The translations under genes were made by a program, and so were the position numbers. From Microlunatus kandeliicorticis (GTDB lineage: Bacteria; Actinomycetota; Actinomycetes; Propionibacteriales; Propionibacteriaceae): a DNA stretch of 64,000 nt. Positions 26,887-40,961 of this stretch are shown in pieces. Under the pieces are notes generated by a model. It worked only from the letters and a program-made list of their open reading frames with translations. It was not told the origin of the DNA and ran no database searches. Where the stretch lies: contig NZ_JACGWT010000001.1 in assembly GCF_014137855.1 (NCBI RefSeq), positions 62,001 through 126,000 of the forward strand, written 5' to 3'. The first letter of the stretch is position 1; every line of letters starts with the position of its first letter.

Positions 26887-26950
26887 GGAGAGGGGCGCTC
26901 AGCTGACGCCTTTCGGCTGAGCGCGTTGCCTGGCCGAACTTTCGTGGGTC

Positions 26951-26992
26951 TCCCCAACGGGATTCGAACCCGCGCTGCCGCCTTGAAAGGGC
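26951..26992. repeat. Left attachment site (42-bp direct repeat, tRNA-Glu 3' half)
   Basis: Identical to 40891-40932. It begins TCCCCAACGGGATTCGAACC and ends within the anticodon stem (AAAGGGC). Its outer flank would give a tRNA 3' end with G72 and CCC, unlike the copy now in the functional gene. Confidence 0.9.
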
Positions 26993-27374
26993 TTTCAGGC
27001 GCTCCGTGCGCTCTTCTGCTCACTAGCGACGATGACCGGAAAGTAGTGTCTGACTAGGCGATTCGCCGCCACGAGGCTTCGCGTTGTCTCTCACTGCTTT
27101 GCAGCCGTTTCCAGCCAGCTGCCCCATGGGTGCCCCATCACCGATCTTGACGGCTCGGGGTCGACTCTCCGCTACCTCCAGACCGCTCGTCAGGCCTAGA
27201 GGCGGCACAGGTCTCGCCGTCGCCTGCCGTCGAGGTAGGGACTCGCTTGTGGTGCGCCGTTCCCTGACGCCGCGTGCCGAGGCCAGGCACATCAACTTTT
27301 CGATTCTGTGGCGGGTGCAGCGGTATCTCACCAGAATTGAAGGTGCCCCTGTCGGCGAGATGACGCGGAGGTTG
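26993..27374. other. Gene-free left border of the island
   Basis: No convincing gene in either strand. Short open frames here lack ribosome binding sites and any family resemblance. TGCCCCATGGGTGCCCCA (27120-27137) is the only notable repeat. Confidence 0.4.
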
Positions 27375-28325
27375 TCATGACGGCGGAGGTAGTGCCTTGT
27401 CGCGCGCAGCAGCGTAGGTTGAGTAGCTCGCCGCCAGAGCGTCGTCTGGACGCGCTGCCGCAAGGACACCCGTTCGGCGGAAGTGGCCCCGCCGGTGGAA
27501 GTCTGTGGCGTCCAGACCGACATAGCCGTGGATTGACTTAATCAAAATGTCGGAGTAGTCGAGTAGCGGCGCTACGATCATCGTTGCAATTTCCTGACGA
27601 GGCCCCTCCAGGCCGGCAGTGAACCAATGTCGAGAGTGCACTGCCCCAGACGCGATCGACCACATGTAATGCATGCCTGGCATATAGAGACGGCTACTTT
27701 GGGTCATCTGCAGTTTGAGCGGCACTTTCGGACTCTCACCATAACTAACTGTGGTGACGTTGCCAGACTTCGGGCTGCGTCCTAAGTCGAACCCAGTCTG
27801 GATCAGATAGTCCTGCATCTCAGTGAACGCTTCGGAAACCCTTGAGCGATCGTTGGTCTGCTGGTTAGGCAGGTGATCCAATGCGTCGAGCGAGCCTGCG
27901 GGGCTCGCGAGTGATGCTGCCGCAGCGCGAGTTAGCCGCTCCTCCGGCTGCAACGTTGGATCAACCATCCAGCAGGCCGTCAGGAATGCCTCGTGCACTG
28001 AACGCACCAAGGCCATCATCGGCATGGGCAGGATTGCGTCGGCGGCAAGGAGCAGTAGGAGGGCCTCACAGTGCTCATCCGAGACGCGCATGAGCTCGAT
28101 GACTTGACCGAGGCCGACGCCCATGACGCCGTGCAGCGCCTCCCGCCGCCTCCGCGGATGATCCTCGATCCAGGCGAACTCCGTCGCCCGAACTGATCCG
28201 GCCACTGGTTCCCTCCAGGCGTCCAATGCAGGCGCCAACTCCTCGCGAACCGCTCGAGACTGTTGCCGGATCACTCGTGCTCCGAGGTCCTGCGGGCCAT
28301 CTATCGCTAGGCTCGTGGGCGACAC
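27375..28325 (-). CDS. Hypothetical protein (island cargo)
   Basis: A 316-residue, probably soluble, largely helical protein that I do not recognise. Visible features are a hydrophobic helix ILPMPMMALVRSVHEAFLTA, a conserved-looking HSRHWF segment and LDYSDILIKSIHGYVGL near the C-terminus. Base composition is clearly lower in G+C than the surrounding chromosome, supporting recent transfer. GTG 28325 is the start. Cargo of this kind is often defence-related or regulatory, but nothing here proves that. Confidence 0.7.
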   Translation of the reverse strand: MSPTSLAIDGPQDLGARVIRQQSRAVREELAPALDAWREPVAGSVRATEFAWIEDHPRRRREALHGVMGVGLGQVIELMRVSDEHCEALLLLLAADAILPMPMMALVRSVHEAFLTACWMVDPTLQPEERLTRAAAASLASPAGSLDALDHLPNQQTNDRSRVSEAFTEMQDYLIQTGFDLGRSPKSGNVTTVSYGESPKVPLKLQMTQSSRLYMPGMHYMWSIASGAVHSRHWFTAGLEGPRQEIATMIVAPLLDYSDILIKSIHGYVGLDATDFHRRGHFRRTGVLAAARPDDALAASYSTYAAARDKALPPPS

Positions 28326-28708
28326 AGAAATCAGTCCCCGCTAGTTGCACTCTTGATCATCCGATAAGCCTACAGAGCCGGGGCCGGCTACATGTGGCGG
28401 GATAATAGTCTGAGGAAGGAATTTGCTTCCCAATCGGCGCGGCCCGCAGCGCAGCGAGGACACGCGCCGATTGGCCGAGCGCAGCGAGGCCTTGATCTCA
28501 AAGAGCCAGATTCGGCAGTGCTGGTTGCGGATGTCTGCCTGAGCCCGGCGCCCTCCGCTCGGTGCGTGCTGGTGTGGGCCCAGCTGGGAGGTCGCCCGCT
28601 GTCTCGCGAGTACCCAAGGAGAGCGTGGGCGTCCTGACCGGCGTGGTCCTGCGTCCGCTGTACCCCGTGTTACCACCCGGGACGGCCGTTTGAACGCCGC
28701 TGACTCGA
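28326..28708. other. Gene-free 383-bp region with a 12-bp perfect inverted repeat
   Basis: CCAATCGGCGCG (28431-28442) pairs exactly with 28464-28475 across a 21-nt loop; GCGCAGCGAGG occurs in and just after the loop. No gene recognised. The repeat may be a terminator or protein-binding site between the hypothetical gene's promoter and the end of the sigma-factor gene. Confidence 0.4.
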
Positions 28709-29275
28709 CTACTCCGGGGCCGGAAGGACCTCGCGGAGGCGAGCCAGGCCGTCGCGGACTCTCGTCTTCACCGTGCCGAGCGGGATCTGCAGGATCTCCG
28801 CTGTCTGTTGCTGGGTGTGCCCCCCGAGATAGGTCAGCGCGATCGCCTCGCGCTGGACTGGCGTGAGCACACCGAGCGCTCTATGGATCTTTCGCTGATC
28901 GATGGTCTGCTCGACTTGAGACCAGACTAGATCGAACGCGCGCGGTGCGGTCTCCCGGGCGTAACGATCGTCGCGGGCGGTGTCGCTGTTGACCGAGCGC
29001 ACGCGATCGACGGCTCGACGGTGAGCCATGACCGTCATCCAGGTGATGACTGACCCCCGGGCTCGCTGGTAGCGAGAGGCCTGACGCCAGACCTCTAGGT
29101 ACAGCTCTTGGGCGACTTCGTGAGCGTGGTCTACCGCTCTCAGTGTTCGGAGGATGACGCCATACATGCGGGCGTTGGTAGCGTCGTAGAGTTCGGCGAA
29201 CGCGCCCTCATCACCGTCCGACACATCCGCGACCAAGGCCTCCAGGCGCCGGTTGAAAGCAGCGCGCGGGTCCAT
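28709..29275 (-). CDS. sigK: SigK-like ECF sigma factor
   Basis: A 188-residue ECF RNA polymerase sigma factor. Region 2 reads FAELYDATNARMYGVILRTL and EVWRQASRYQRARGSVITWM; MAHRRAVDRVRS matches the mycobacterial SigK segment. Region 4 is GHTQQQTAEILQIPLGTVK. ATG 29275 was chosen because it matches the family length; GTG 29383 would add 36 low-complexity residues. No anti-sigma gene (rskA-like) is adjacent. It probably activates the neighbouring ferritin-like gene and perhaps the divergent operon, but no consensus promoter is certain. Confidence 0.88.
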   Translation of the reverse strand: MDPRAAFNRRLEALVADVSDGDEGAFAELYDATNARMYGVILRTLRAVDHAHEVAQELYLEVWRQASRYQRARGSVITWMTVMAHRRAVDRVRSVNSDTARDDRYARETAPRAFDLVWSQVEQTIDQRKIHRALGVLTPVQREAIALTYLGGHTQQQTAEILQIPLGTVKTRVRDGLARLREVLPAPE

Positions 29276-29585
29276 GTCGTTCCCGCCAGGCTCCGTCGGA
29301 GTGGCCGGGTCGGAGGGCGTGTTCCTCGGTCGGTGAGCGAGCGCGTCGACCGAAGGGCGGACAGGTTCGATCACGTCCGTCACGAGGGTCGGCTCGTGTG
29401 TCTCGAGCGCACAACAGCCTCCAGGTCTCCCCCGAGGCCGATTTCAGCGCGCCTTGGGTGACCAGGCGACGTCCGGAGTGTAGGACACGGTGCCGTCGAG
29501 AAGCGTCGTGCCCGTCGTGTTTCTCCGACGGCGGCAGTGGAGATGAGTCGGCTAGCCGGGCAGCACTGACGGCACCAGTGGGATA

Positions 29586-29629
29586 CTCCAGCGCCGGGCC
29601 GCCCCATCTTCGACGGCCCGGCACTGGAG
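29586..29629 (-). terminator. 15-bp stem-loop between the ferritin-like gene and sigK
   Basis: CTCCAGCGCCGGGCC (29586-29600) pairs with 29615-29629 in 14 of 15 positions around a 14-nt loop, 33 bp after the ferritin-like stop. No T-run follows. It probably ends or attenuates the ferritin-like transcript before sigK. Confidence 0.65.
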
Positions 29630-29661
29630 CTTCTTCGGTCCGGCGAGAAGCCGATGCCGGA

Positions 29662-30594
29662 TCAGCTGTTGTTCTGGCTCACCCGCAGCGTGCCGTTGAT
29701 GCTGTTCGGGAAGAAGCCGCCTTCGCTGACCTGGCCCGGGTTGAGGTAGACCACGTTGAGCACCTGGCCCGGAGCGCGGGAGTAGGCGAGCCCGTTGGCA
29801 TCCGCCGGGACCAGGTTGACCGCACCGGAGGAGCCGGTGATGCCCTGGTCGTCGTCGGTCTTGCCGTCGAGCGAGTCCCGCGCATTCGAGATGGCGTTCG
29901 CCGCTGAGGACAGTCCCTTGTCGAGAAGGGCCTTGCGGATGATCCCGGCGTGGTAGGCCTCGACCGAGAGGATCCCGGCTGCGGCGTCGAGGTAGGTCTT
30001 GTTGCTGATCAGCGGCGCGGCTCCCTTGTAGGCAGTGACACCGACGTCCTCGAAGATGAACGCTCCGAGCAGGAAGCTGTTCTCGTCCTTGAACGGGTCG
30101 AACGTCTGCCCTGCACCGATCAGGCCGGCCGCCCGGGCGGCGGTGGTGAAGCTGTTCTTGAGGTCGATGTTGGGCATCGCCGTCTTGGCGTCACCCAGGG
30201 CGGACCTGAGGAACTTGACGTGGGCCAGCTCGTCACCGGCGATCTCCGTGGCGATGCCCTGCACGGCCTTTGAACTGAAGGGGACCTTCGCGCCGCCGGT
30301 CACCCGGCCGTTCGAGTCCTTGCCGGTGAGCAGCGAGGCGTCGAGCCCGTAACCGTAGACGGCGTAGTGGTAGAACTGCGCTTCCAGGTACTCCAGGTTG
30401 AGCGCGAAGTTCAGGATCGCGCCGTCAGAGATGGTGCCGTCGGCGGCCGCCTTGTCCGCGCCGGCGCCGAGCAACGCGCTGCCGGCGACCACGCCGGCTC
30501 CGGTCAGGCCGGCCGCGCGGAGGAAGTTGCGTCGGTCGGTGCCGTTCTCGGCGCTGCGGCTGATCATGTCAGCCACGGTCTTCTTTCCGAACAT
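29662..30594 (-). CDS. Tat-exported ferritin-like domain protein
   Basis: A 310-residue protein with a twin-arginine signal (DRRNFLRAAGLTGAGVVAG, Arg21-Arg22), so it is exported folded. The ferritin-like four-helix core carries the metal Glu/His pattern: ALNLEYLEAQFYHY, EIAGDELAHVKFLRSALG, FIFEDVGVTAY and GILSVEAYHAGIIRKALL. It resembles the desiccation-related PCC13-62/DUF4439-like group. Probable roles are metal binding or peroxide protection outside the membrane. Pairing with a SigK-type sigma gene suggests stress induction. Confidence 0.85.
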   Translation of the reverse strand: MFGKKTVADMISRSAENGTDRRNFLRAAGLTGAGVVAGSALLGAGADKAAADGTISDGAILNFALNLEYLEAQFYHYAVYGYGLDASLLTGKDSNGRVTGGAKVPFSSKAVQGIATEIAGDELAHVKFLRSALGDAKTAMPNIDLKNSFTTAARAAGLIGAGQTFDPFKDENSFLLGAFIFEDVGVTAYKGAAPLISNKTYLDAAAGILSVEAYHAGIIRKALLDKGLSSAANAISNARDSLDGKTDDDQGITGSSGAVNLVPADANGLAYSRAPGQVLNVVYLNPGQVSEGGFFPNSINGTLRVSQNNS

Positions 30595-30984
30595 GTGTGC
30601 CTCTCATGCAGATCCTGCTAATGGGCACGAGGGACAGTCGCGGGACGGTGGCGTGCGCGAGTTGAGCTGCTCCCCCGAGCGGGACTGGTCGACCAGCCTC
30701 CGATCCGGGCTTCGGTGCGGCTCTGGCCGCGGATGGGCCAAGATCGCTTTCGGTCGGAGCTTCGTGGCGCAACTCTCAGATGATCTGATGATCATGAGGT
30801 CGGCGTGTGCCGGCTGCCGCACTTTGCTTGTGACTCCGCACACACCTGTCATCGCGTCCAGGCGTGAATCGGTGCGGAGATCGCATCGGAACGAAGTTTG
30901 TCCCGGATCGTCCAAACTGCGCATCGACCTCACTCCGTATGACCTGTGTCTTCGCATGATCGACTCTCGGGGGATTGATACATC
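30595..30984. promoter_or_regulatory. Divergent promoter region, ferritin-like gene versus surface operon
   Basis: A 390-bp gene-free region. Leftward, CCGTCC and CCCATT separated by 17 nt (complement of about 30620-30650) resemble an ECF promoter. Rightward, GTCCAAAC (30910-30917) and CCGTAT (30935-30940) have 17-nt spacing. Both are weak pattern calls, not verified SigK sites. Confidence 0.3.
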
Positions 30985-32601
30985 GTGCGCGCTCGCTTGT
31001 CCTGCGCTGTCCGACCGACCGACGAACGACCCTTCCGCTCCGTGCTTCGCCGCATGCCGGCCTTGGCACTCCTTCTCGTCCTGTCCTCCTTCGGCCTCGG
31101 GGCGGCGCTGTCCGCCGCCGGGGATCTGGTCGCGGCTCCGAGTGCTGTCGCCGCGCCGGGCGAGCCGAGCGGCGGGCAGTCGCAGTTGCTGCCTCCGGCC
31201 GGTCAGCCGACGACGACCACCGATGCGCCCAACCGTGGCAACGCGCCGGCTCCGACTGTCGCTCCGGTCGGCACCGGCGATCCGACCCACCTGGGCGGGC
31301 AGATCGGGTTGATCGCCCTCGGCGTCGTGTCGCTCGCGCTCACCGGGGTGGCGCTGACCACGTTGGCCTGGATGCTCCACGCGTGGCGCACGCCGCAGCA
31401 CCTCGAGGCCACTGGTTTCGTGCGGTCGAAACGGCCGCCGACTCTCAGCTTCTCCCTGCTCGTCCCGGCTCGGCATGAGGAGGAGGTGCTGGGAGACACG
31501 CTGGACAAGCTCGCCGAGCTTGACCATCCGGACTACGAGGTCCTGGCGATCATCGGGCACGACGATCCAGGAACCGAAGCCGTGGCGCGTGCCGCCGCTG
31601 ACCGGCACCCCGACATCGTCCGCGTCGTCATGGACTACAGCGTCCCGAAGAACAAGCCCAAGGGCATGAACACCGCGCTGCCGCACTGTCGGGGCGACAT
31701 CATCGGCGTGTTCGACGCCGAGGACGAAGTCCATCCCGAGCTGCTGCGCCTCGTCGACGGACGGTTCGCCGACACCGGTGCCGACGTGGTGCAAGGGGGC
31801 GTCCAGCTGATGAACATCGAGAGCAGCTGGTGGTCGCTGCGCAACTGCATGGAGTACTACTTCTGGTTCCGGAGTCGACTGCACTTCCACGCCGGGGCGC
31901 GCTTCATCCCGCTCGGCGGGAACACCGTGTTCGCGCGAGCCGATGTGCTGCGCGAGGTCGACGGATGGGACTCCGAGTGCCTGGCCGAGGACTGCGAGCT
32001 GGGAGTCCGGCTCTCGACGCGGGGCAAGAAGGTCGTCGTGGCCTACGACCCCGACGTGGTCACGCGCGAGGAGACCCCGCCGACGCTCAAGAGTCTGTAC
32101 AAGCAGCGCACCCGGTGGAACCAGGGCTTCCTGCAGGTGCTGCGCAAGGGGGAGTGGAAGCACCTGCCGACGTGGCGGCAGCGGATGATGGCGCGCTACC
32201 TGCTGTCGATGCCGTTCCTGCAGGCGTTCACCGGCGTGATGATCCCGGTCTCGGTGGCGCTGATGCTCTTCGCGAAGGTGCCGACCACGGTGGCGCTGCT
32301 GACGTTCCTGCCCATCGTGCCGACGTTGCTCACCATCGTGATGGAAACCGCGGGACTCGGCGACTTCCGCCGGGTTTATGGCGTACGGGTACGGCCTCGT
32401 GACTACCTCCGGCTGCTGCTGGGCACCTTCCCCTACCAGGTCTTCCTGGCCGCGGCCGCCGTTCGCTCGGTGATCCGCGAGCTGCGCGGGATCAACGCCT
32501 GGGAGAAGACCGAGCACACCGGAGCTCACCGACCATCGGCCCAGCGCCGCCCTGAACCGGCGTTGGCCGGCACCGCGAGCCGAAGCGAGGCAGCCCGATG
32601 A
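30985..32601 (+). CDS. Processive GT2 (cellulose/hyaluronan synthase-like) membrane glycosyltransferase
   Basis: A 538-residue membrane enzyme. A signal-like helix and a Pro/Thr-rich linker (to about residue 105) precede a membrane helix and the GT-A domain: LLVPARHEEEVLGDTLDKL, the DxD-like GVFDAEDEVHP, the catalytic-base region CLAEDCELGVRL and the QRTRW motif, diagnostic of processive beta-glycan synthases. C-terminal helices form the channel (LLSMPFLQAFTGVMIPVSV). No PilZ domain is seen. The product is unknown; the GH8 gene downstream suggests a beta-1,4-type glucan. GTG 30985 is used; ATG 31054 is an alternative. The stop overlaps the next gene. Confidence 0.88.
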   Translation: MRARLSCAVRPTDERPFRSVLRRMPALALLLVLSSFGLGAALSAAGDLVAAPSAVAAPGEPSGGQSQLLPPAGQPTTTTDAPNRGNAPAPTVAPVGTGDPTHLGGQIGLIALGVVSLALTGVALTTLAWMLHAWRTPQHLEATGFVRSKRPPTLSFSLLVPARHEEEVLGDTLDKLAELDHPDYEVLAIIGHDDPGTEAVARAAADRHPDIVRVVMDYSVPKNKPKGMNTALPHCRGDIIGVFDAEDEVHPELLRLVDGRFADTGADVVQGGVQLMNIESSWWSLRNCMEYYFWFRSRLHFHAGARFIPLGGNTVFARADVLREVDGWDSECLAEDCELGVRLSTRGKKVVVAYDPDVVTREETPPTLKSLYKQRTRWNQGFLQVLRKGEWKHLPTWRQRMMARYLLSMPFLQAFTGVMIPVSVALMLFAKVPTTVALLTFLPIVPTLLTIVMETAGLGDFRRVYGVRVRPRDYLRLLLGTFPYQVFLAAAAVRSVIRELRGINAWEKTEHTGAHRPSAQRRPEPALAGTASRSEAAR

Positions 32602-34658
32602 CCCAGACCATCGAGGACCGTGTCCTCGAATTCGACCGAACGAAGGACCGCCCGCGGGCCGAGCAGCACGAGGACAGCCCGGCCGTCTCGCCGGGGCCGA
32701 CCGGCCCTGATCTCAGAACCGGGCGACACGGGCTCAGTGTGTTCCTCCGGAGCCGACGGCGGTCGATGATCTGGTTCGCGCCGCTGGCGGTCCTCGCCGC
32801 GATCGTCAACTTCGTCAACATGACCGGGTCGCCGCAGCGCATCGACGATGAGGGCACCTACACCGCGCAGGCCTACGCCGTTGATCACCTCGGCTCGCTG
32901 ACCCACTACACCTACTGGTACGACCATCCGCCGCTGGGATGGATCCAGATCGCCGGATGGGTCGGCCTGACCGGTGGCTTCGGTCGTTACACCAGCTCGG
33001 TGATGGCGGGCCGCGAGTTCATGATCGTCTGCGCCCTCGTCTCGTGCGCGCTGCTGTGGATGGTCGCGCGCCGCCTGGAGCTGAGCCGCCCGACCGCTGC
33101 GGCTGCCGTGGCGATCTTCGCCCTGTCCCCGCTCGCGGTTCAGTTCCACCGCACGGTCTTCTTGGACAACGTGGCCACACCGTGGCTGCTCGCCGCCTTC
33201 GTCCTGGTGATGGCGCCCCGCCGTCAACTGCTGGCGTTCGCGGCCGCTGCGTTGTGCTTCGCCGTAGCCGTGCTGAGCAAGGAGACCTATCTGCTGTTCG
33301 GACCGTTCCTGGTCTGGCAGATGTGGCGCGGCGCGCACAGGGGCACCCGTCGCTACACGGTGTCGCTGGCCGGCGGCGTGCTGGTCCTGCTCGGTCTGTC
33401 CTATGTGTTGCTGTCCACGATCAAGGGAGAGCTCTTCCCGGGACCCCGTCGGGTCAGTCTGATGACCGGCATCTATTTCCAGCTCAGTGGCCGGACCGCC
33501 AGCGGAAGCCTGTTCGACGCGACGAGCCAGGCGCGAGTGACCACCGCGCAGTGGTTGCAGCTCGACCCGGTGATCGCCGTGGTCGCGCCGATCGCTGCCC
33601 TCCTCGCGCTGCGCAGTCGGAAGCTGTGGCCGGTGGCCGGAACGCTGATCTTCCTGCTGCTGTTCATGCTGCGGCCGGGCTATCTCCCGGTGCCCTATGT
33701 GATCGGGATGCTGCCGTTCGCCGCGCTGCTCATCCCTGCTGCGGTGGAGGTCTGGCTACGTCGGGCGCGGTCTCTCGTTTCCGCAGTGCGGCGCCGGCTC
33801 GCGATCATGGCCGTGGCGATCATCACCACTGCTGCGGTTGCGGTGACGGCGGCAGCGTGGGGACCCCAGCTACGTGGTCTGCTGCTCTCCGATCTGGACC
33901 AGCCGATGGTGCAGGCCGAGAATTGGGTCGAGGCGAATGTGGGCCGCAACTATCGCGTCGTCGTCGACGACTCGATGTGGACCGATCTCGTCCGTCACGG
34001 CTTCCCGCGTGACAACGTGGTCTGGTACTACAAGGTCGACACCGACCCGGCCGTCGAGGCGCTGGCCCCCAACGGCTGGCGAGATTACGACTACGTCGTC
34101 TCGACCAACTCGATGCGCACGTTCCCTGACGGATCGCCCACCGTGGCAGAGGCGCTGCGGAACTCCACCGAAGTCGCAACGTTCGGCACCGGCGACAAGG
34201 CGGTGACGATCTTCCGGATCCATCCGGAGGGTGCTGCCGAAGTCGGCCGCATCGCGGCGCGGGAGGCCGCAGGACGCGAGGCCGTCGGTACGGCTCTCGC
34301 CCAGAATCCGGCACTCAGCATGCCGACGCCGATGCGCAACCTGATGACCGGCGGACGTGTCGATCCGCGCATCCTGCTCACCCTGCCAGGGGCGACCTCC
34401 GTCGGTCGGCTGACCGTCGCTGATGCTCCGGCGGTCGATGGTGAAGTGACAGAAGCTGCGCCGCGACGGCAGGTGCTGATCAGCGCGATCGACGGCCAAC
34501 CGATCTCGAAGACGCCGGCCAATGCCGCCGCGCTCGAAGCGTTCTACGACCAGGAGAAGCCGCCGTTCCGGCCGGAGGCCATCAGCCGGACTCCCGAGGG
34601 TCTGCTCATCACCTACGACATCGAGATGCCGACCGGGTTGGTCTCGGCGACGACCTGA
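32598..34658 (+). CDS. GT39/ArnT-like polytopic glycosyltransferase
   Basis: A 686-residue GT-C fold enzyme. The first loop carries the catalytic acidic pair in RIDDEGTYTAQAYAV, followed by YDHPPLGWIQIAGW; about ten to twelve membrane helices end near residue 425. The remainder is an extracytoplasmic domain. It uses a polyprenyl-phosphate sugar to glycosylate a protein or glycan outside the membrane. Coupled (ATGA) to the GT2 synthase; the DUF4397 protein encoded next is a likely acceptor (inference). Confidence 0.85.
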   Translation: MTQTIEDRVLEFDRTKDRPRAEQHEDSPAVSPGPTGPDLRTGRHGLSVFLRSRRRSMIWFAPLAVLAAIVNFVNMTGSPQRIDDEGTYTAQAYAVDHLGSLTHYTYWYDHPPLGWIQIAGWVGLTGGFGRYTSSVMAGREFMIVCALVSCALLWMVARRLELSRPTAAAAVAIFALSPLAVQFHRTVFLDNVATPWLLAAFVLVMAPRRQLLAFAAAALCFAVAVLSKETYLLFGPFLVWQMWRGAHRGTRRYTVSLAGGVLVLLGLSYVLLSTIKGELFPGPRRVSLMTGIYFQLSGRTASGSLFDATSQARVTTAQWLQLDPVIAVVAPIAALLALRSRKLWPVAGTLIFLLLFMLRPGYLPVPYVIGMLPFAALLIPAAVEVWLRRARSLVSAVRRRLAIMAVAIITTAAVAVTAAAWGPQLRGLLLSDLDQPMVQAENWVEANVGRNYRVVVDDSMWTDLVRHGFPRDNVVWYYKVDTDPAVEALAPNGWRDYDYVVSTNSMRTFPDGSPTVAEALRNSTEVATFGTGDKAVTIFRIHPEGAAEVGRIAAREAAGREAVGTALAQNPALSMPTPMRNLMTGGRVDPRILLTLPGATSVGRLTVADAPAVDGEVTEAAPRRQVLISAIDGQPISKTPANAAALEAFYDQEKPPFRPEAISRTPEGLLITYDIEMPTGLVSATT

Positions 34659-34704
34659 GCGCTTGGTGCAACCCGACTCAGAAGCCACCATGAGGAGAAT
34701 TTCC

Positions 34705-35694
34705 ATGCGAGACCAGAACCGAACCGACCGAGCCGCGCGACATTCCGCACTCCGACGGCTGGGCACGATCGCCGTTGCCGCGGGCACCCTGACGCTCAGC
34801 CTCGCGGCCTTCGCTGCCCCGGCGCATGCCGAGGGAGCAAGCGGGTCGACCACCGAGGGGACCGGCTGGATCCGGCTCACCCACCTCTCGCCGGACACGT
34901 CGGACGTCAACGTCACCCTGACGTCGCTGGCCGACAGCAAGGCGACGGTGAAGCTGCGTGACGTCGGCTACGGCGACGTGTCGAAGTACTGGAAAGTGCC
35001 GGCGGGCCGATACGTCGCGGCGATGACGCCGGCTGGCGGCAGCGGTTCGAGCAAGCCGGTGATCACGCAATCGGTCACGGTCCAGAACGACTATGCGTAC
35101 ACGGTGGCTGCGATCGGGAAGAACGCCGATCTGAAGGGGCTCGTGCTCAACGATGACCTCCGCCCGCCGAAGAGCGGGCAGGCGAAGATCAGGCTGATCC
35201 AAGCATCAACCAACGCTCCCACCGTCACCGTCACGGCGATGGGTGGGCCGGTGCTGGCCCGTGATGCGGCCTTCGGCTCCGCGACCGGGTACGCGGCGGT
35301 CAGGGCTGGAGTGTGGACGGTGGACCTGGCGCCCGGCAGCGGCTCCAGCGCGAAGTCTGAGTCGGTGAAGGTGACAGCGCGTCCGGGATCGGTGAACACC
35401 ATCGTGCTGCTCAACGGCGCCAACGGCCAGCTGGCCACGAAGGTGTTGCAGGACGCGGGCGGCACGATGACGATGCCGGCCAGGGGCAAAGGTGTGGAGA
35501 CGGGAGGCGGGGGAGCTGCCACGGAGTTCGTCACCGACCCGGTTGCCCACTCGGGCTCAGCTCCTGCCGGTCCGGGCACCGGGGCGGTCGTCGGCCTGGC
35601 TGCAGCCGGCCTGGTGGGCGCCGTCGGCGTCGGTGTGCTGCGCCGTCGTGCTATCCGCAGAACGATTGCGGCATGCCGGGGTGCCGCTGGATGA
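34705..35694 (+). CDS. Exported DUF4397 surface protein, probable sortase F substrate
   Basis: A 329-residue protein with an N-terminal signal (LGTIAVAAGTLTLSLAAFA, cleaved near AHA), two DUF4397 beta-sandwich repeats (WIRLTHLSPDTSDVNVTL and AKIRLIQASTNAPTVTVT), and a C-terminal anchor: membrane helix at residues 293-312 and a basic tail RRRAIRR. There is no LPXTG; VETGGGG at residues 264-270, 25 residues before the helix, is the only TG-type candidate sorting motif. ATG 34705 follows GAGGAG. The stop overlaps the GH8 start. Confidence 0.85.
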   Translation: MRDQNRTDRAARHSALRRLGTIAVAAGTLTLSLAAFAAPAHAEGASGSTTEGTGWIRLTHLSPDTSDVNVTLTSLADSKATVKLRDVGYGDVSKYWKVPAGRYVAAMTPAGGSGSSKPVITQSVTVQNDYAYTVAAIGKNADLKGLVLNDDLRPPKSGQAKIRLIQASTNAPTVTVTAMGGPVLARDAAFGSATGYAAVRAGVWTVDLAPGSGSSAKSESVKVTARPGSVNTIVLLNGANGQLATKVLQDAGGTMTMPARGKGVETGGGGAATEFVTDPVAHSGSAPAGPGTGAVVGLAAAGLVGAVGVGVLRRRAIRRTIAACRGAAG

Positions 35695-36896
35695 GAGCGG
35701 GATCGCGGCACGAGGCGAGACAACACCGTGGCCCGGTGCTCGGCCTGCTCGTCGCGGCGGTGGCTCTCGCTGTCGTCGTAGCGTTGCTTCTTGCGCTGCT
35801 GGCAACCGGGCGTCTGACGTTGGCTGGATCCGGTCCGTCGAGCGGCTCGAGGAGCGGCGGTGATGCCAGTTCGCCCGCTCCGACGGCCGAGCCCACACCG
35901 CGGAACGTCCAGGACGCCGGACGATCCTTTCTTCGCGGCTATGTCGATCCGGACGGTCGCGTGGTCCGGCGAGACCAGGGCGGGGACACGGTCAGTGAGG
36001 GGCAGGCCTATGCCATGTTGATTGCCGTAGGGCTCGGGGATCGCGAGGCCTTCGCGCGGGTGTGGGACTGGACGCGGATGCACTTGCTCCGCCCCGACGG
36101 CACGCTGAGCTGGCGTTGGCAGGACGGACGCGTGCAGGACGCCGAATCGGCCTCGGACGCCGATCTCGACGCCGCGCGCGCCCTGGTCCTGGCCGGCGCG
36201 CGCTTCGGCCAGCCGAACTGGACCCAGGCAGGAACGCAGCTCGGAAAGGCCGTGCTCAACGTCGAGACGGTCCGCACCTCACTCGGCCTGGTGCTCACGG
36301 CGGGAAGCTGGGCTGGGCAACAGCCGTACGCCTACAACCCCAGCTACGCCTCGCCGGTGGCCTACGCCGTGCTGGAGCGCGCGACCGGCGACGCCCGCTG
36401 GAAGCAGCTCGCCGCCGGGAGTCGGGCCGCCACCGCAGGCATCCTGGACAAGACCGACCTACCGCCGGACTGGGCACAGATCCACGCCGACGGAGCGGTG
36501 GATCCGATGCCCGGCGCCGCTGGACGGGGCAACGACGGCGTGCGCTACAGCTACGACGCAGCCCGGCTCCCGATCCGCTATGCCGAGTCCTGTGACGATG
36601 CCGATGTCGCCCAGGCTGCGGCGTTGTCCGGGCCCCTGGAGCGATTCGGCGGGACGCCGGCCGCCCGCGATCTCGGCGGCCGCCCGCTCACCGCCGAGGG
36701 GTCACCGGTGGCCGCTGTCGGCCAGGCCGCGGCCCTCGCCGCCGGCGGAGACGACGAGGGAGCGCGTCGAGCCCTGCTCAGGGCCGACGACTTGGCGCAG
36801 CGCGATCCGACTTACTACGGCGCGGCCTGGGACGCGCTGGGCCGGATGATGCTCGAGCAGAACGTCCTCGGCGGCTGCGGGCGGCTCGAGTCATGA
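35691..36896 (+). CDS. Membrane-anchored glycoside hydrolase family 8 (endoglucanase-like)
   Basis: A 401-residue enzyme with one N-terminal membrane anchor (residues about 16-38), a Ser/Pro linker, and an (alpha/alpha)6-barrel GH8 domain. The acid Glu103 lies in TVSEGQAYAMLIAVGLGD and the second acidic pair in SASDADLDAARALVLAG. Relatives such as BcsZ trim nascent beta-1,4-glucan, so pairing with a processive GT2 synthase implies glycan editing outside the membrane. Coupled by ATGA at both ends. Confidence 0.88.
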   Translation: MRAGSRHEARQHRGPVLGLLVAAVALAVVVALLLALLATGRLTLAGSGPSSGSRSGGDASSPAPTAEPTPRNVQDAGRSFLRGYVDPDGRVVRRDQGGDTVSEGQAYAMLIAVGLGDREAFARVWDWTRMHLLRPDGTLSWRWQDGRVQDAESASDADLDAARALVLAGARFGQPNWTQAGTQLGKAVLNVETVRTSLGLVLTAGSWAGQQPYAYNPSYASPVAYAVLERATGDARWKQLAAGSRAATAGILDKTDLPPDWAQIHADGAVDPMPGAAGRGNDGVRYSYDAARLPIRYAESCDDADVAQAAALSGPLERFGGTPAARDLGGRPLTAEGSPVAAVGQAAALAAGGDDEGARRALLRADDLAQRDPTYYGAAWDALGRMMLEQNVLGGCGRLES

Positions 36897-37570
36897 CCGC
36901 GCGTCCTCGGCTCCGCCAGACCTCCAGCTCGGCCGAGCGCGGTCGGGGCGTGCTGGCGGCCGTGCTGGTGGCATTCGTAGTGACGCTCGCCGGCTGCGGC
37001 ACCTCCGAAGCACCGACGAGCGGCGCACCGACTCCGGTCGCGACGTCGTCCGTCCCGTCGCCGACCTCGTCGGCACCGACGTCGCCGGCGCCCTCCGGTC
37101 CGGCTCCGCTGCCGAAGGAACGTCAGGTCTCTGTCACGTCCGTGCGCATCGGATCGATCGGTCTGAAGACGGCGAGCCTGGAAAAGCTCGCCCTCCTGAG
37201 CAATGGTGAGCTCGCTGCGCCAAAGAACCCGGATCGTGCGGGTTGGTTCGCCGGCGGAACCGTGCCGGGACAGGTCGGTCCCGCGGTGATCGCCGGCCAT
37301 ATCGATTCGAAGACCGGTCCGGCTGTGTTCTTCGAGTTGAGACTGGTCAGCAAGGGCGATCAGATCAAGGTCGGACTCTCCGACGGGAGGACGGTCACGT
37401 TCAGGGTCGACCGCGTGATCACGACGGCCAAGAAGGGCTTCCCGACGGACGAGGTGTTCGGCCCAACACCTGACGCGGAACTCCGGCTGATCACGTGCGG
37501 CGGACCCTACGACCGGACCGTGCAGAGCTACCTGGACAACACCATCGTGTTCGCCACCCGCCTGAACTGA
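36893..37570 (+). CDS. Class F sortase with lipobox
   Basis: A 225-residue transpeptidase. The signal ends in LAGC (Cys35), a lipobox, so it is predicted to be a lipoprotein, followed by a Ser/Pro/Thr linker (36-72). The sortase barrel has His135 in VIAGHIDSKTG and the nucleophile Cys202 in RLITCGGPYDR, with Arg208 or Arg223 as third residue. It should attach the DUF4397 protein to the wall or to the glycan made by this operon. Last gene of the operon. Confidence 0.92.
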   Translation: MTARPRLRQTSSSAERGRGVLAAVLVAFVVTLAGCGTSEAPTSGAPTPVATSSVPSPTSSAPTSPAPSGPAPLPKERQVSVTSVRIGSIGLKTASLEKLALLSNGELAAPKNPDRAGWFAGGTVPGQVGPAVIAGHIDSKTGPAVFFELRLVSKGDQIKVGLSDGRTVTFRVDRVITTAKKGFPTDEVFGPTPDAELRLITCGGPYDRTVQSYLDNTIVFATRLN

Positions 37571-38010
37571 GTCGTTTTCTGAACGGGGTTCGGGTCGGGG
37601 CGCGATGCGCTCCGGGTGCCAAGGAGGGTAGAACCTGAGATTGATCCAGACGGCAGACCGTGGCCGCGATCATCGTCTAGCCATGGATTATGTGATATAC
37701 GTCACACTGAGTGATCCGCGTCGTCCACCGACAGTCGCGACGGCGCGCGGAAGCGTCTCAGTCCACTGGCGTCCATAGCAGGTCGGCGATGTGCACTGAG
37801 GTCCATAGACGTCGCGGTCTGGAAGCGTGTGAACGCAGACAAGAGTCGTCGGTTCGTCGGTGTCGCGGTCTGAGGTGAGCCTCGTGTTGACGAGCGTGTC
37901 GGTTGGGCGTGGTATTACTGAGACAGGCGTTCCCAAGAAATGGCTAACGGGTCGGAATGGCTCGGCCGAGGGGCGCTGGTAAGTGCGACCGTGATGGCTA
38001 ACGGGTTGGA
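37571..38010. other. Gene-free region upstream of the replication gene, with direct repeats
   Basis: Holds the CRP/GlxR-like site (37691-37706), GTCGCGGTCTG twice (about 37811 and 37862) and an imperfect 35-bp direct repeat (37940-37976 and 37994-38028) whose second copy contains the rep start codon. TTGACG (37887-37892) and TATTAC (37913-37918) form a weak promoter with a 20-nt spacer. A leftward frame here looks spurious. Confidence 0.5.
37691..37706. promoter_or_regulatory. CRP/GlxR-type operator
   Basis: TGTGATATACGTCACA matches the actinobacterial CRP/GlxR consensus TGTGANNTANNTCACA at every fixed position. It lies 120 bp after the sortase stop and about 305 bp before the rep start, so its regulated gene is unclear. 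Confidence 0.6.
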
Positions 38011-39248
38011 ATGGCCCGGCTGAGGCGCACAGCAATCGATGTACTCGAACCTTCCCGCTCGGCTGCGGTGCCGCGGATCACCGCGGAGATGGCGCACGAG
38101 CTGGCGGTGGCGCAGAAGGTGTGCGTGCGTCCGCTGGTCCGGCGGGTCATCGACCAGGTCGACGGCACCGAATCGAAGGTCGCGCTGCCGTGCAACAGCA
38201 CGCGGGAGGATGTGTGCCCGTCGTGCGCGGACAAGAACCGCCGGCTGCGCATGCAGCAGTGCGCCGAAGGCTGGCACCGCACAGACGACCCCGAACGCCT
38301 GGTGTTAGCCGATGCCGAGACTCTCCACCAGTTCGACGATGATGCTGGCGACCAGGTCGAGGATGAGGGCGCCCGGCGGGTGCGGTCGACGCGTCGGCGT
38401 GATGATGTGCCGGATTTGCCGCGGGTGCCGTGTGAGGACCGGACTGTCGGTCGGGCGTTTGAGACTCCGGACGGCAAGATCTACCGGCCCTCGATGTTCC
38501 TGACCCTGACGATGCCGTCCTACGGGCCGGTCAAGGCCAACGGAACACCGCTGGATCCGAGCAGCTACAACTATCGGCGGGCGGCGTTGGATGCGTTGCA
38601 TTTCCCGAAGCTGGTGGATCGGTTCTGGCAGCACGTCCGCGGCTGCGCCGGCTACAGGGTCCAGTACTTCGCTGCCGTCGAACCTCAGAAGCGCCTGGCT
38701 CCGCATCTCCATGCCGCGGTCCGCGGTGCGATCCCGCGCAGCTTGTTGCGGCAGATCATGAAGGCCACCTATGCCCAGGTGTGGTGGCCGGCCCTCGACC
38801 GACCGGTTTACGTCCACCGATGCGAACTGGCTGCATTACGGCATCCAACCCAAGAATCCTGGCCCCGGCCTGCGGGCCGGTGACTGCAGCTCGAAGGCAC
38901 ACGACCGGGAACACCTCGGCTTGGGCGGCCGGCGGGTGCTGGTGTCACGTCAGTGGTCACAAAACGCTGCAGGAACATAAAGTTGACCGGGCCACCGTCG
39001 TCCGCGAAGCCCTTCTCAACTCCGGCATCGTGGCGCCGGGGATCGAACGACTCGCCGCCACGGTCACCCTTCCCGACGGGTCTCCACGGTTCGTCTGGAC
39101 CGACACCCGCCCGGATCCGATTACCTACGCCCGCATCATCCTCGAATCCGTTCTCGAGCGGTCGCGCTGGCGCGCGCAGTACGAGCAAGCGAAGCAACAG
39201 CAGGTCGGGGAAACCCATTCAGCAACCGACGGCGACCCGGACGGCTGA
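38011..39248 (+). pseudogene. RepSA-like replication initiator, broken by internal deletion and frameshift
   Basis: Residues from ATG 38011 match the RepSA/pSAM2-type initiator: zinc-ribbon-like CPSCADKNRRLRMQQCAEGW and the rolling-circle HUH-like EPQKRLAPHLHAAVRG. At about 38815 the frame shifts and a middle block well over 100 residues long is missing; it resumes as NWLHYGIQPKNPGPGL and REHLGLGGRRVLVSRQWS. A second shift near 38957 leads to KTLQEHKVDRATVVREAL and YARIILESVLERSRWRAQYE, the normal C-terminus. The intact gene would be about 500 residues or more. Excised DNA should therefore not replicate by this protein. Confidence 0.82.
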
Positions 39249-39275
39249 CATCGACTAGGTCACCTCGGCGTCTGC

Positions 39276-39410
39276 TTCGGCCTCCCCGACCACTGCGAAG
39301 TCTGGTCTCCGACCGGCTGGTCAAGGGTGAGCGAAGCGAATCCATCGGACACGAAGTGCTCTTGACCAGCCGGTCGGAGACCACACCATCACCAACTCGG
39401 GGAGGCCGAA
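39276..39410. repeat. Nested perfect inverted repeats (135 bp), candidate origin or cruciform
   Basis: Inner arms 39304-39325 and 39361-39382 are exact 22-bp complements around a 35-nt loop. Outer arms 39276-39289 (TTCGGCCTCCCCGA) and 39397-39410 are exact 14-bp complements. The unpaired segments between inner and outer arms are 14 nt on each side. It sits between the rep remnant and xis. Candidates are a single- or double-strand origin, an oriT or a strong transcription barrier. Confidence 0.85.
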
Positions 39411-39438
39411 CCCGAACCCCACGTGGAAGGAATTGATC

Positions 39439-39636
39439 ATGGCGACGGAACGGATGATGTCTTTGTCTGACCTGTCGGAGCTGCTGGGCGTTCCGCTCAC
39501 GACGCTGTATGCCTGGCGTCATCGAGGTGAGGGGCCGGCTGGGTACCGCATCGGTGGTCATGTTCGGTTCCGCCGGGTTGATGTCGAAGCGTGGCTTGCG
39601 AGCTGCGCTGAGTCTTCTTCCCCGGCTGGTCGTTGA
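39439..39636 (+). CDS. xis: Excisionase, helix-turn-helix (Xis/AlpA-like)
   Basis: A 65-residue MerR-type winged helix: MSLSDLSELLGVPLTTLYAW and GYRIGGHVRFRRVDVEAWL. Such proteins bend DNA at attachment sites and direct the integrase toward excision. ATG 39439 follows GGAAGG. It ends 2 bp before the integrase ATG, the standard xis-int unit of these elements. Confidence 0.9.
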   Translation: MATERMMSLSDLSELLGVPLTTLYAWRHRGEGPAGYRIGGHVRFRRVDVEAWLASCAESSSPAGR

Positions 39637-39638
39637 AC

Positions 39639-40796
39639 ATGGCGCACATCGAGCGTCGGATGGTCGACCAGCGGGAGAGTTCGGGTCGTGTTCGCAAGGT
39701 GGCGCGGTACAAGATCCGTTATCGCGATCATGCAGGTCGCGAGCACAGCGAGACGAAGCGCCGTCTGGTCGACGCCGAACGACGCAAGGCCGAGATCGAG
39801 ACTGAACTGGCCGGCGGGACCTGGCGTGACCCGCGGCGCGGTCAGGTGCGGCTCTCCGATTGGGCGGAGACGTGGGTGGTGACCCGGCATGATCTTCGGG
39901 CGACGACGCGTCAGCGTTTGGAGGTCACGCTGCGGTGTCAGGTCATTCCGAAGTTCGGGCAGGTGCAGCTTGACCGGATTACGAACGCGGCGGTCCGTGT
40001 GTGGGTGGCTGAGATGCTCGACGGTGGCCTCTCGGCAGCGAGCACTCGGAAGGCAGTCTTTGCTCTGCGTCAGTGTCTAGATGCAGCCGTCGCAGATAAT
40101 CGGCTGGCAGTAAACCCGGCCCTGCGGGTGCCATTGCCGTCGGAGCGGGCCAAGGTGCCGCGATTCTTGTCGCAAGACGAGGTCGAGCGGCTGGTCGAGG
40201 CGATGCCGGCGGAGTATCGGGCGCTCGTGCTGGTCGGTGCCTATGCGGGTCTTCGCTGGGGTGAGGCCGCCGGGCTGACGCGGGCTAATGTCGACGTGAT
40301 GCGCTCGCGCATCTTCGTCCGGACGACGGCTGTCGAAGTCGCTGGGACGGTGACGCTCGGGAATGAGCCGAAGACGACGAGGTCGAAGCGGACCGTTCCG
40401 GTAGCTCGGTCGGTGATGCGTCGGATCGATGAACACCTGGCGACCTATGTCGGCGCTGAGGCCGACGCGCTTCTGTTCGTGGCGCCGAGAGGTGGGCCGT
40501 TGTTCCGGTCGTTCGGACGTCAGGTCTGGCATCCGGCGGTCGAGCGTGCTGGCCTTGGCGACGTCACGTTCCACGGCTTGCGGCATAGCTTCGTCGCGAT
40601 CCTGGTGGCCGCCGGCTGCAACGTGCGGGAGGTCTCTGAGTGGGCCGGGCACAACAGGGTCGCCTTCACGCTGACCCGCTACGGCGGCCTGTTCGAGGAC
40701 GGCTCGGACGCCGCCGTGGACCGGCTGGACGAGCTACTGAGCCCGTCGACAGAGGCTCACGGCCAGGTGTCGCGCTTGACGGGTCGGGACGGGTGA
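39639..40796 (+). CDS. int: Tyrosine-family site-specific integrase
   Basis: A 385-residue recombinase that joins element and tRNA attachment sites. N-terminal arm-binding and SAM-like core-binding domains (LSDWAETWVVTRHDLRATTR) precede the catalytic domain with all expected residues: Arg in YAGLRWGEAAGL, Lys in EPKTTRSKRTVPV, HGLRHS, the His of WAGHNRV and the nucleophile Tyr in LTRYGGLFED. It appears intact. It reads toward the tRNA-Glu copy 90 bp downstream; the attP-like core lies there. Confidence 0.95.
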   Translation: MAHIERRMVDQRESSGRVRKVARYKIRYRDHAGREHSETKRRLVDAERRKAEIETELAGGTWRDPRRGQVRLSDWAETWVVTRHDLRATTRQRLEVTLRCQVIPKFGQVQLDRITNAAVRVWVAEMLDGGLSAASTRKAVFALRQCLDAAVADNRLAVNPALRVPLPSERAKVPRFLSQDEVERLVEAMPAEYRALVLVGAYAGLRWGEAAGLTRANVDVMRSRIFVRTTAVEVAGTVTLGNEPKTTRSKRTVPVARSVMRRIDEHLATYVGAEADALLFVAPRGGPLFRSFGRQVWHPAVERAGLGDVTFHGLRHSFVAILVAAGCNVREVSEWAGHNRVAFTLTRYGGLFEDGSDAAVDRLDELLSPSTEAHGQVSRLTGRDG

Positions 40797-40888
40797 TGCG
40801 TCCCGGCTGCGTCCCAGGCGCCGGTCTGGCCGTTCTGGCTGGGCCGGCGTTCCGGCGTTGTGCCTGGTCAGCGGGTGTTTCTGGGTGG

Positions 40889-40961
40889 TATCCCCAACGG
40901 GATTCGAACCCGCGCTGCCGCCTTGAAAGGGCGGTGTCCTAGGCCGCTAGACGATGGGGAC
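40889..40961 (-). tRNA. tRNA-Glu (anticodon TTC)
   Basis: A complete cloverleaf on the minus strand: acceptor GTCCCCA with TGGGGAT, D-arm GTCTAGCGGCCTAGGAC, anticodon arm CCGCC-CTTTCAA-GGCGG, T-arm GCGGG-TTCGAAT-CCCGT, discriminator A. CCA is encoded next (40886-40888). Its 3' half is the island's right attachment site, so that part is supplied by the integrated element. Confidence 0.95.
40891..40932. repeat. Right attachment site (42-bp direct repeat)
   Basis: Identical to 26951-26992 over 42 bp and contained in the functional tRNA-Glu gene. It spans the tRNA from the anticodon stem to the acceptor stem, as usual for tyrosine integrases targeting tRNA 3' ends. Confidence 0.9.

Follow-up and report, generated by a model that had tools for sequence, protein, structure and literature searches.

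In a 2026 paper (PMC13251363), the physiological roles of class F sortases are stated to be unknown, deletion of all four class F sortases of Actinoplanes missouriensis led to no phenotypic change, the search for substrates used only LPXTG-like and LAXTG motifs, and the known sorting pentapeptides are given as LPXTG, NPXTG, SPXTG, PPXTG, LPXTA and LAXTG. Here we analyse a five-gene operon ending in a class F-like sortase gene, at positions 30985 to 37570 of a 64,000-nucleotide stretch of the Microlunatus kandeliicorticis genome (contig NZ_JACGWT010000001.1, positions 62,001 to 126,000), hereafter the window, to which coordinates refer. Class E sortases and their LAXTG substrates (SrtE and the chaplins; PMC5148588) likewise combine an actinobacterial sortase with a non-LPXTG pentapeptide, whereas the present locus has a sortase of another class, predicted to be lipid-anchored, a GVxTG motif and an adjacent gene for the candidate substrate. 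The GspA/LcpA system of Actinomyces oris also places a glycan on a cell wall-anchored protein of an actinobacterium (PMC6381275), but there the enzyme is an LCP phosphotransferase, in contrast to the GT39/GT-C enzyme encoded here.

We read the operon, with a probability of roughly two in three, as a private sortase–substrate pair with a GVxTG-type signal, combined with a GT-C glycosyltransferase and a glycan module and carried on a mobile island. Gene linkage, motifs, predicted folds, the joint absence of several components from a sister lineage and the mobile island are computed results, while we infer catalysis, the cleavage site, the sugar donor and acceptor, and the chemistry of the glycan. 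The DUF4397 protein would be exported and fold as two Ig-like domains, with a GVETG-GGG signal at its C terminus ahead of a membrane helix and Arg tail. Thr266-Gly267 is the most likely bond at which the neighbouring, putatively lipid-anchored sortase would cut the signal before joining the protein to a cell-wall acceptor. GT39, through an extension apparently dedicated to DUF4397, would take its sugar from a polyprenyl-phosphate donor outside the membrane and probably glycosylate the DUF4397 protein, and at the same surface GT2 would synthesise a beta-linked glycan or glycolipid, to be trimmed by GH8. A glycan module (GT2, GT39, GH8) would in this way be joined to a dedicated sortase module (GT39, DUF4397, sortase).

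Operon layout and the two modules

The five genes, encoding GT2, GT39, DUF4397, GH8 and a class F-like sortase, form a single block on the plus strand, with the following features.

30985..32601, plus strand: GT2 membrane glycosyltransferase (PF13641, E 2.6e-43)
32104..32118, plus strand: QRTRW motif of GT2, residues 374-378 (from alignment and sequence)
32598..34658, plus strand: GT39/ArnT-like GT-C glycosyltransferase (PMT family PF02366, E 5.7e-4; AlphaFold model with fold match to ArnT)
34233..34655, plus strand: C-terminal extension of GT39, residues 546-686, tied to DUF4397 linkage
34705..35694, plus strand: DUF4397 surface protein (DUF4397, E 6.1e-35; N-terminal export signal by eye, two beta-sandwich domains, sorting tail)
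35488..35514, plus strand: candidate sorting motif KGVETGGGG, residues 262-270 (from the relatives' alignment and sequence)
35584..35640, plus strand: C-terminal hydrophobic stretch (membrane helix), followed by an Arg-rich tail (from sequence)
35691..36896, plus strand: GH8 endoglucanase with an N-terminal hydrophobic stretch (PF01270, E 6.6e-36; E109 and D295 kept)
36893..37570, plus strand: class F-like sortase with His136 and Cys202 (Pfam Sortase, E 1.8e-22; NCBIfam class F, 164.1 bits)
36986..36997, plus strand: lipobox LAGC of the sortase (rule-based lipoprotein prediction)

An earlier interpretation made from the letters alone, the sequence-only reading, had described a coupled operon of these five families, and the tight junctions, common strand and family matches bear this out. 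Its 46-bp gap before DUF4397 is also present, containing a GAGGAG stretch and measured to the DUF4397 start ATG at 34705 (an alternative in-frame ATG at 34690 would leave 31 bp), but the overlapping junctions, which it put at four, are three of the four: GT2/GT39, DUF4397/GH8 and GH8/sortase each share a 4-nt ATGA. A possible GH8 start is the ATG at 35691, the longest frame opening at 35673. A promoter scan found none, and there are 5 terminator-like sites against 2.2 expected.

A scan of genome contigs with six peptides of the window GT2 led to 21 loci, 17 of which keep the order and strand of all five genes: 13 in Frigoribacterium and one each in Nocardioides, Curtobacterium, Lacisediminihabitans and Frondihabitans, where GT2 and GH8 each match in two pieces. 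The proposal of one conserved operon, which families found apart elsewhere would have undermined, is thereby upheld. The Herbiconiux contig (L004) ends six bases past DUF4397, Blastococcus (L003) has GT2-GT39-GH8 only, and Longispora (L017) and Embleya (L021) have GT2-GT39 only. In five Frigoribacterium loci (L005, L007, L008, L011 and L022) a second GT2, 32-35% identical, lies just upstream of the operon, at about 8.1-9.2 kb.

The genes are far from equally common: of 345 genomes drawn from the class, 21 have GH8, 47 GT39 (match at 1e-40), 78 DUF4397 and 198 a class F sortase (1e-15), and at least four have the full operon (that of the window, G078, G168 and G295; fetched stretches examined). 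A class F sortase at this threshold occurs in 73 of the 78 genomes with DUF4397, as against 125 of the 267 others. Parts of the operon also stand alone. GT39-DUF4397-sortase triads form 16 loci (L135-L144, L150-L153, L157 and L158) with no GT2 or GH8 match in the fetched stretch, three of these genomes (G046, G064 and G079) having a GH8 on another contig, and L159 has DUF4397 and sortase with only a piece of GT39. GT2-GT39 occurs without the other operon genes in L017, L021, L167 (divergent), L168, L170 and L171, while L003 and L149 combine GT2-GT39-GH8 but have no sortase module. Two modules, GT2-GT39 (GH8 being optional) and GT39-DUF4397-sortase, thus add up to the window operon, and GT39, common to both, is where they meet.

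The sorting tail and the class F sortases

Read by eye, the window DUF4397 protein has the layout of a sortase substrate, i.e., export signal, motif, helix and basic tail in this order. None of the six known pentapeptides is present in its tail, which instead has KGVETGGGG, and a canonical LPXTG signal was accordingly ruled out. In an alignment of 27 relatives from the same branch, G263 and G267 are invariant and T266 is conserved in at least 90%, giving the consensus P-x-G-G-V-x-T-G. The predicted structure consists of two beta-sandwich domains (pLDDT >90) and a low-confidence tail (76 overall), with the extracellular Ig-like pair of PepT1/2 as best solved match.

To compare tails we merged identical ones (138 rows to 123, L197 being dropped with its copy L079), set aside L187 and L230, and treated L004, L079, L097 and L211 as ambiguous because of contig or stretch ends; the pattern was [VIAM]x[TSA]Gx(1-2)G and a sortase neighbour was a class F-like sortase within 1.6 kb downstream. 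Among the 98 unique DUF4397 genes with such a neighbour (window excluded), 95 have the motif, 77 the helix and basic tail, and 74 all three (without the 13 Frigoribacterium proteins, motif 82/85 and helix with basic tail 77/85), as opposed to 5/19 and 7/19, for motif and for helix with basic tail, among those lacking a sortase neighbour. Fisher's p for the motif (1.5e-11) is purely descriptive, since the pattern was picked with the tails in view, the tails come from related proteins, and 28% of tails still fit it after shuffling. The motif is missing from the DUF4397 proteins of Thermus, Halolamina, Natronorubrum and Paraburkholderia (0/4), which by eye also show no helix with basic tail, and L148, with no sortase in its stretch, has a weak DUF4397 remnant without motif. 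Four of the seven proteins with helix and basic tail but no sortase neighbour, L222-L225 from genomes outside the class, end in an LPXTG-like PDTGG, helix and Arg, and their fetched stretches contain no sortase match. A single open frame in L187, and likewise in L230, runs across DUF4397, the sorting tail, a lipobox-like stretch and the sortase; as both keep the sorting tail and the internal lipobox, each may consist of two genes that lack an intervening stop, and they were not used as evidence for DUF4397-sortase fusions.

A similar signal is found beyond DUF4397. With the pattern fixed beforehand, we took a second set of 30 class F sortases, the best match of each of 30 genomes, none of them beside DUF4397 (25 genomes without a DUF4397 match, five with one elsewhere). 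For 20 of the 30, a frame upstream closes with motif, helix and basic tail, versus 9 of 965 background frames, the background being gene-called ORFs more than 3 kb from sortases and the second-set test accepting any open frame on that strand. Pfam scans of seven of these neighbours revealed no DUF4397 protein. NCBIfam already has a 44-position model of a GVDTG sorting domain (NF058571), which shares GVxTG, helix and basic tail, in the same place, with the DUF4397 tail; its name points to no sortase class. L106, encoded next to a class F sortase gene, scores above its cut-off (39.3 against 29 bits), L117, L105, L129, L131 and the DUF4397 protein L138 (19.8) fall below, L118 and L134 have no match to it, and neither has the window DUF4397 protein (P0003) at E<=1; in the window genome the best match, also below cut-off, is the tail of a second DUF4397 protein. 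For want of a hit on P0003, we call its tail GVxTG-type and not a member of the model. In open-licence papers we found neither a link of a GVxTG/GVDTG signal to class F sortases or DUF4397 nor a report joining DUF4397 with a sortase.

Class F is the best class for the window sortase (NF033748, 164.1 and 164.9 bits against a cut-off of 166), and His136 and the TC at 202 are invariant in 27 sortases. The protein is predicted to be a lipoprotein. The same rule-based prediction, made on rows with unique C-terminal 120 residues (23 of 132 unclear), gives a lipobox in 14/18 triad sortases, 2/18 from other five-gene loci, 17/66 remaining DUF4397-linked sortases (including the window copy, L001) and 0/30 of the second set. 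The triad figure is an undercount, since at least L077 and L082 were scored as membrane helix in spite of a visible lipobox. The class F model finds three sortases in the window genome, all adjoining DUF4397 genes; the Pfam model had given one, and the idea of a single sortase was dropped. The two further pairs, L165 (C2:904000-915032, with an adjacent extracytoplasmic function (ECF) sigma gene) and L166 (C5:359000-378900), have diverged tails, VPGGTGG and VPTGSGG.

Together, the tail motif beside sortase genes and the similar signals beside other class F sortases suggest that the DUF4397 protein is the substrate of its neighbour, through a GVxTG-type signal, in agreement with the anchored protein of the sequence-only reading. 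Several points weigh against the preferred reading of the operon. The motif is loose and was taken from the DUF4397 tails themselves; a stricter GG[VIM]x[TA]G is found in only 45 of the 98 tails, and 21 of the 98, including all 13 from Frigoribacterium, lack a clear helix with basic tail. The second set does not amount to 30 independent cases, as 24 of its genomes belong to one genus, near-identical versions of a single tail make up 13 of the 20 positives (with six kinds of tail in all) and 10 of the 30 sortases are negative. NF058571 is below cut-off on the one other DUF4397 protein scanned (L138) and does not hit P0003. The window sortase itself lies 1-2 bits under the class F cut-off, no Arg column is invariant at the active site (R198 is conserved in at least 90% of the 27), and a class F sortase of C. 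acnes is reported to use LPXTG (PMC13257024). Finally, short GT39 proteins adjoin GT2 without DUF4397, so that their acceptor there is not DUF4397.

The looseness of the pattern and the helix-less Frigoribacterium tails would fit a flexible Gly-rich spacer with a membrane anchor, the sortase acting on other proteins. We consider this unlikely, because the two glycines do not vary and the threonine hardly does, because the signal recurs on non-DUF4397 proteins beside other class F sortases and is modelled by NCBIfam as a sorting domain, and because the motif is far rarer where no sortase is adjacent. Less probable still is that the sortase ligates DUF4397 to a glycan made by GT2, carrying for instance an amino sugar, in place of peptidoglycan. 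The linkage of the modules in one operon is all that speaks for it, and the sortase-DUF4397 pair is widespread without this GT2 or GH8 beside it, so that the usual acceptor must be something else; the suggestion in the sequence-only reading that the protein is attached to the glycan itself finds no support.

With the private pair as the preferred reading, a broader picture can be drawn, for and against which we see the balance as even: class F sortases of Actinomycetota may form a separate system, each dedicated to the product of the adjacent gene by a GVxTG signal with the T-G bond as cleavage site. One branch of this system would add a dedicated GT-C enzyme and a lipid-anchored sortase and lock a glycosylated Ig-like protein to the wall, travel on integrative elements and merge with glycan-synthase modules. 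The pairing would name a likely substrate and signal for many class F sortases and cast DUF4397 as a surface protein anchored in the wall. The operon analysis further proposes that sortases can be lipid-anchored and that a glycosyltransferase can have a domain devoted to a single sortase substrate.

Glycosyltransferases, GH8 and the glycan

GT39 scores 19.9 bits against PF02366, below the Pfam cut-off of 22.7, and is therefore filed only as GT-C, ArnT/PMT-like. Its AlphaFold model (pLDDT 89) has a GT-C fold with a folded C-terminal part; ArnT (5f15, E 3e-9) is the best solved fold, and Pmt4 is also among the matches. GT-C enzymes have an acidic pair on the first loop, and in GT39 D83, D84 and E85 are invariant in 17 proteins, with only E85 conserved in at least 90% of a wider set of 28. 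While it shares the GT-C fold of ArnT and the protein O-mannosyltransferases, GT39 differs from them by its score below the Pfam PMT cut-off and by a C-terminal extension tied to DUF4397.

This extension, seen solely beside DUF4397 or a DUF4397 remnant, makes the GT39 proteins next to DUF4397 about 140 residues longer. Matches from 47 genomes fall into 15 that reach residue 629 or beyond and 32 that end at or before 573; by the listed DUF4397 places, DUF4397 is adjacent in 14 of the 15 genomes with extended GT39 and in none of the 32 with the short form, the exception (G231) having a weak DUF4397 remnant of 46 bits. The short-form genomes comprise 25 without a DUF4397 match and seven in which DUF4397 lies on a different contig or at a distance above 1.5 Mb (one of the short-form genomes, G301, has a second DUF4397 match outside the listed rows). 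On a core tree of 28 chosen proteins the extension label needs three changes, two of them forced by supported branches, compared with 6.4 in shuffles. The window GT39 has as its sister the short protein of Blastococcus (L003; support 96/97), and in this closest relative extension, DUF4397 and sortase are jointly absent. Dedication of the extension to DUF4397 suggests that GT39 probably glycosylates the DUF4397 protein.

The glycan half of the operon is less firmly placed, and the sequence-only reading, taken as a whole, holds in part, its surface-protein half being the stronger; the stand-alone triad, the GT39 extension, the sorting motif, the predicted lipoprotein sortase and the mobile island go beyond it. 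It had seen a processive QRTRW synthase and, with the GH8, a resemblance to a cellulose-like synthase/BcsZ pair. BcsA and BcsZ are paired in bcs operons, and the window operon likewise combines a QxxRW GT2 with a GH8 endoglucanase; it differs in a GT2 far under the CelA model and in the added GT39 and sortase genes. The QRTRW motif and the full D, D, ED, QxxRW set are indeed present, but processivity is not borne out by the nearest solved structures, and neither CelA nor BcsZ cut-offs are reached, the GH8 scoring 110.1 bits against 299 on the BcsZ equivalog model. What stands of the pair is that a CMCax-type GH8 favours a beta-1,4-glycan, in which a role of GT2 and GH8 is plausible.

A cellulose-like exopolysaccharide operon, in which GT2 and GH8 would act like BcsA and BcsZ, GT39 would decorate the polymer, and DUF4397 and sortase would display a glycan-binding protein that holds it, remains a serious if less than even prospect. 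QRTRW, DD, DAE and ED are invariant in 17 GT2s, GH8 has CMCax as its closest relative (1wzz, E 1.2e-27) and its E109 and D295, which we take to be the catalytic acid and base, are invariant in 13, GT2-GT39-GH8 occurs without the sortase module (L003 and L149), and a pair of beta-sandwich domains would suit such a protein. Yet GT2 reaches only 36.7 bits on CelA (cut-off 699.1) and 75.9 on PgaC (422.3), the fetched stretches of the 16 stand-alone triads contain no GH8 match (three genomes having one elsewhere), and the window genome has a second, isolated GH8 (L164, 9548-10663), 63% identical to that of the operon. A somewhat more doubtful proposal is that GT2 resembles ceramide glucosyltransferase or HpnI and makes a lipid-linked sugar, the donor used by GT39 for DUF4397, with no polymer and with GH8 trimming short glycans. 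Solved structures related to GT2 at E<=0.01 are limited to the family 2 glycosyltransferase 6yv7 and ceramide glucosyltransferase, neither of which is known to make polymers; HpnI and an XrtP-associated glycosyltransferase are among its NCBIfam matches, all below cut-off, and GT2-GT39 pairs occur without the other genes (L017, L021, L168 and L170). Against it, the named solved relatives of GH8, designed proteins aside, are endoglucanases, cellulases and xylanases, i.e., polymer enzymes, and the GT39 of the 16 triads has no such GT2 beside it.

The integrative island

The operon is the cargo of a 13.9-kb pSAM2-type island in tRNA-Glu (26947-40932), with the following features outside the operon.

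26947..26992: left end repeat of 46 nt, 98% identical to the right copy, 42 nt of it perfect (repeat search)
27375..28325, minus strand: ORF without Pfam match
28709..29383, minus strand: ECF sigma factor, SigK-like (NF007228 SigK, 216.5 bits, cut-off 226; relatives near some DUF4397 loci)
29662..30594, minus strand: ferritin-like protein (PF13668, E 7.7e-47)
38011..38883, plus strand: RepSA (pSAM2-type) replication initiator, partial (PF20199, E 9.5e-42, model positions 3-234 of 438)
39633..40796, plus strand: tyrosine integrase (PF00589, E 9.2e-23)
40886..40961, minus strand: tRNA-Glu, attachment site
40887..40932: right end repeat, inside tRNA-Glu (repeat search)

As in pSAM2-type actinomycete integrative and conjugative elements, a tyrosine integrase lies beside a tRNA gene, the ends are direct repeats, here of 46 nt with the right copy inside the tRNA gene, and there is a RepSA initiator. 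It differs from them in an initiator ORF spanning about half of the model and in having a surface operon as cargo. The end repeats are the only direct repeat family of at least 22 nt in 20000-46000, and G+C is 0.61-0.69 inside the island versus 0.69-0.74 around it. In another genome of the genus (G211) the same tRNA-Glu has beside it an integrase with 72% identity and RepSA at full length (PF20199, E 1.5e-150; L249 11973-15121); the operon is absent from that tRNA-Glu, and the genome has no GT39 match of the window kind. G211 was rejected as an empty site, its tRNA-Glu being occupied as well, and the other end of that element was searched for without success. From the end repeats, integrase, RepSA, G+C shift and the operon-free tRNA-Glu of G211, the operon is best read as cargo acquired in the window genome.

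Other carriers were also considered. In L145 the operon lies near a relative of the integrase and a tRNA-Arg, but no repeat of at least 22 nt was found, and a second island was not accepted. No plasmid match to GT39 was obtained at 1e-20, and scanning viral contigs with a pattern gave no close relative. For DUF4397, 21 plasmid records were hit (Thermus, haloarchaea and one Paraburkholderia), all over less than 80% of the query. As for the sigma factor gene, 36 of 97 loci have a SigK-like ECF sigma gene no more than 4.5 kb from DUF4397. A link to the sortase was rejected, since the frequency is similar with a sortase (29/79) and without (7/18: L163, L191, L197, L222, L223, L224 and L226); the linkage follows DUF4397.

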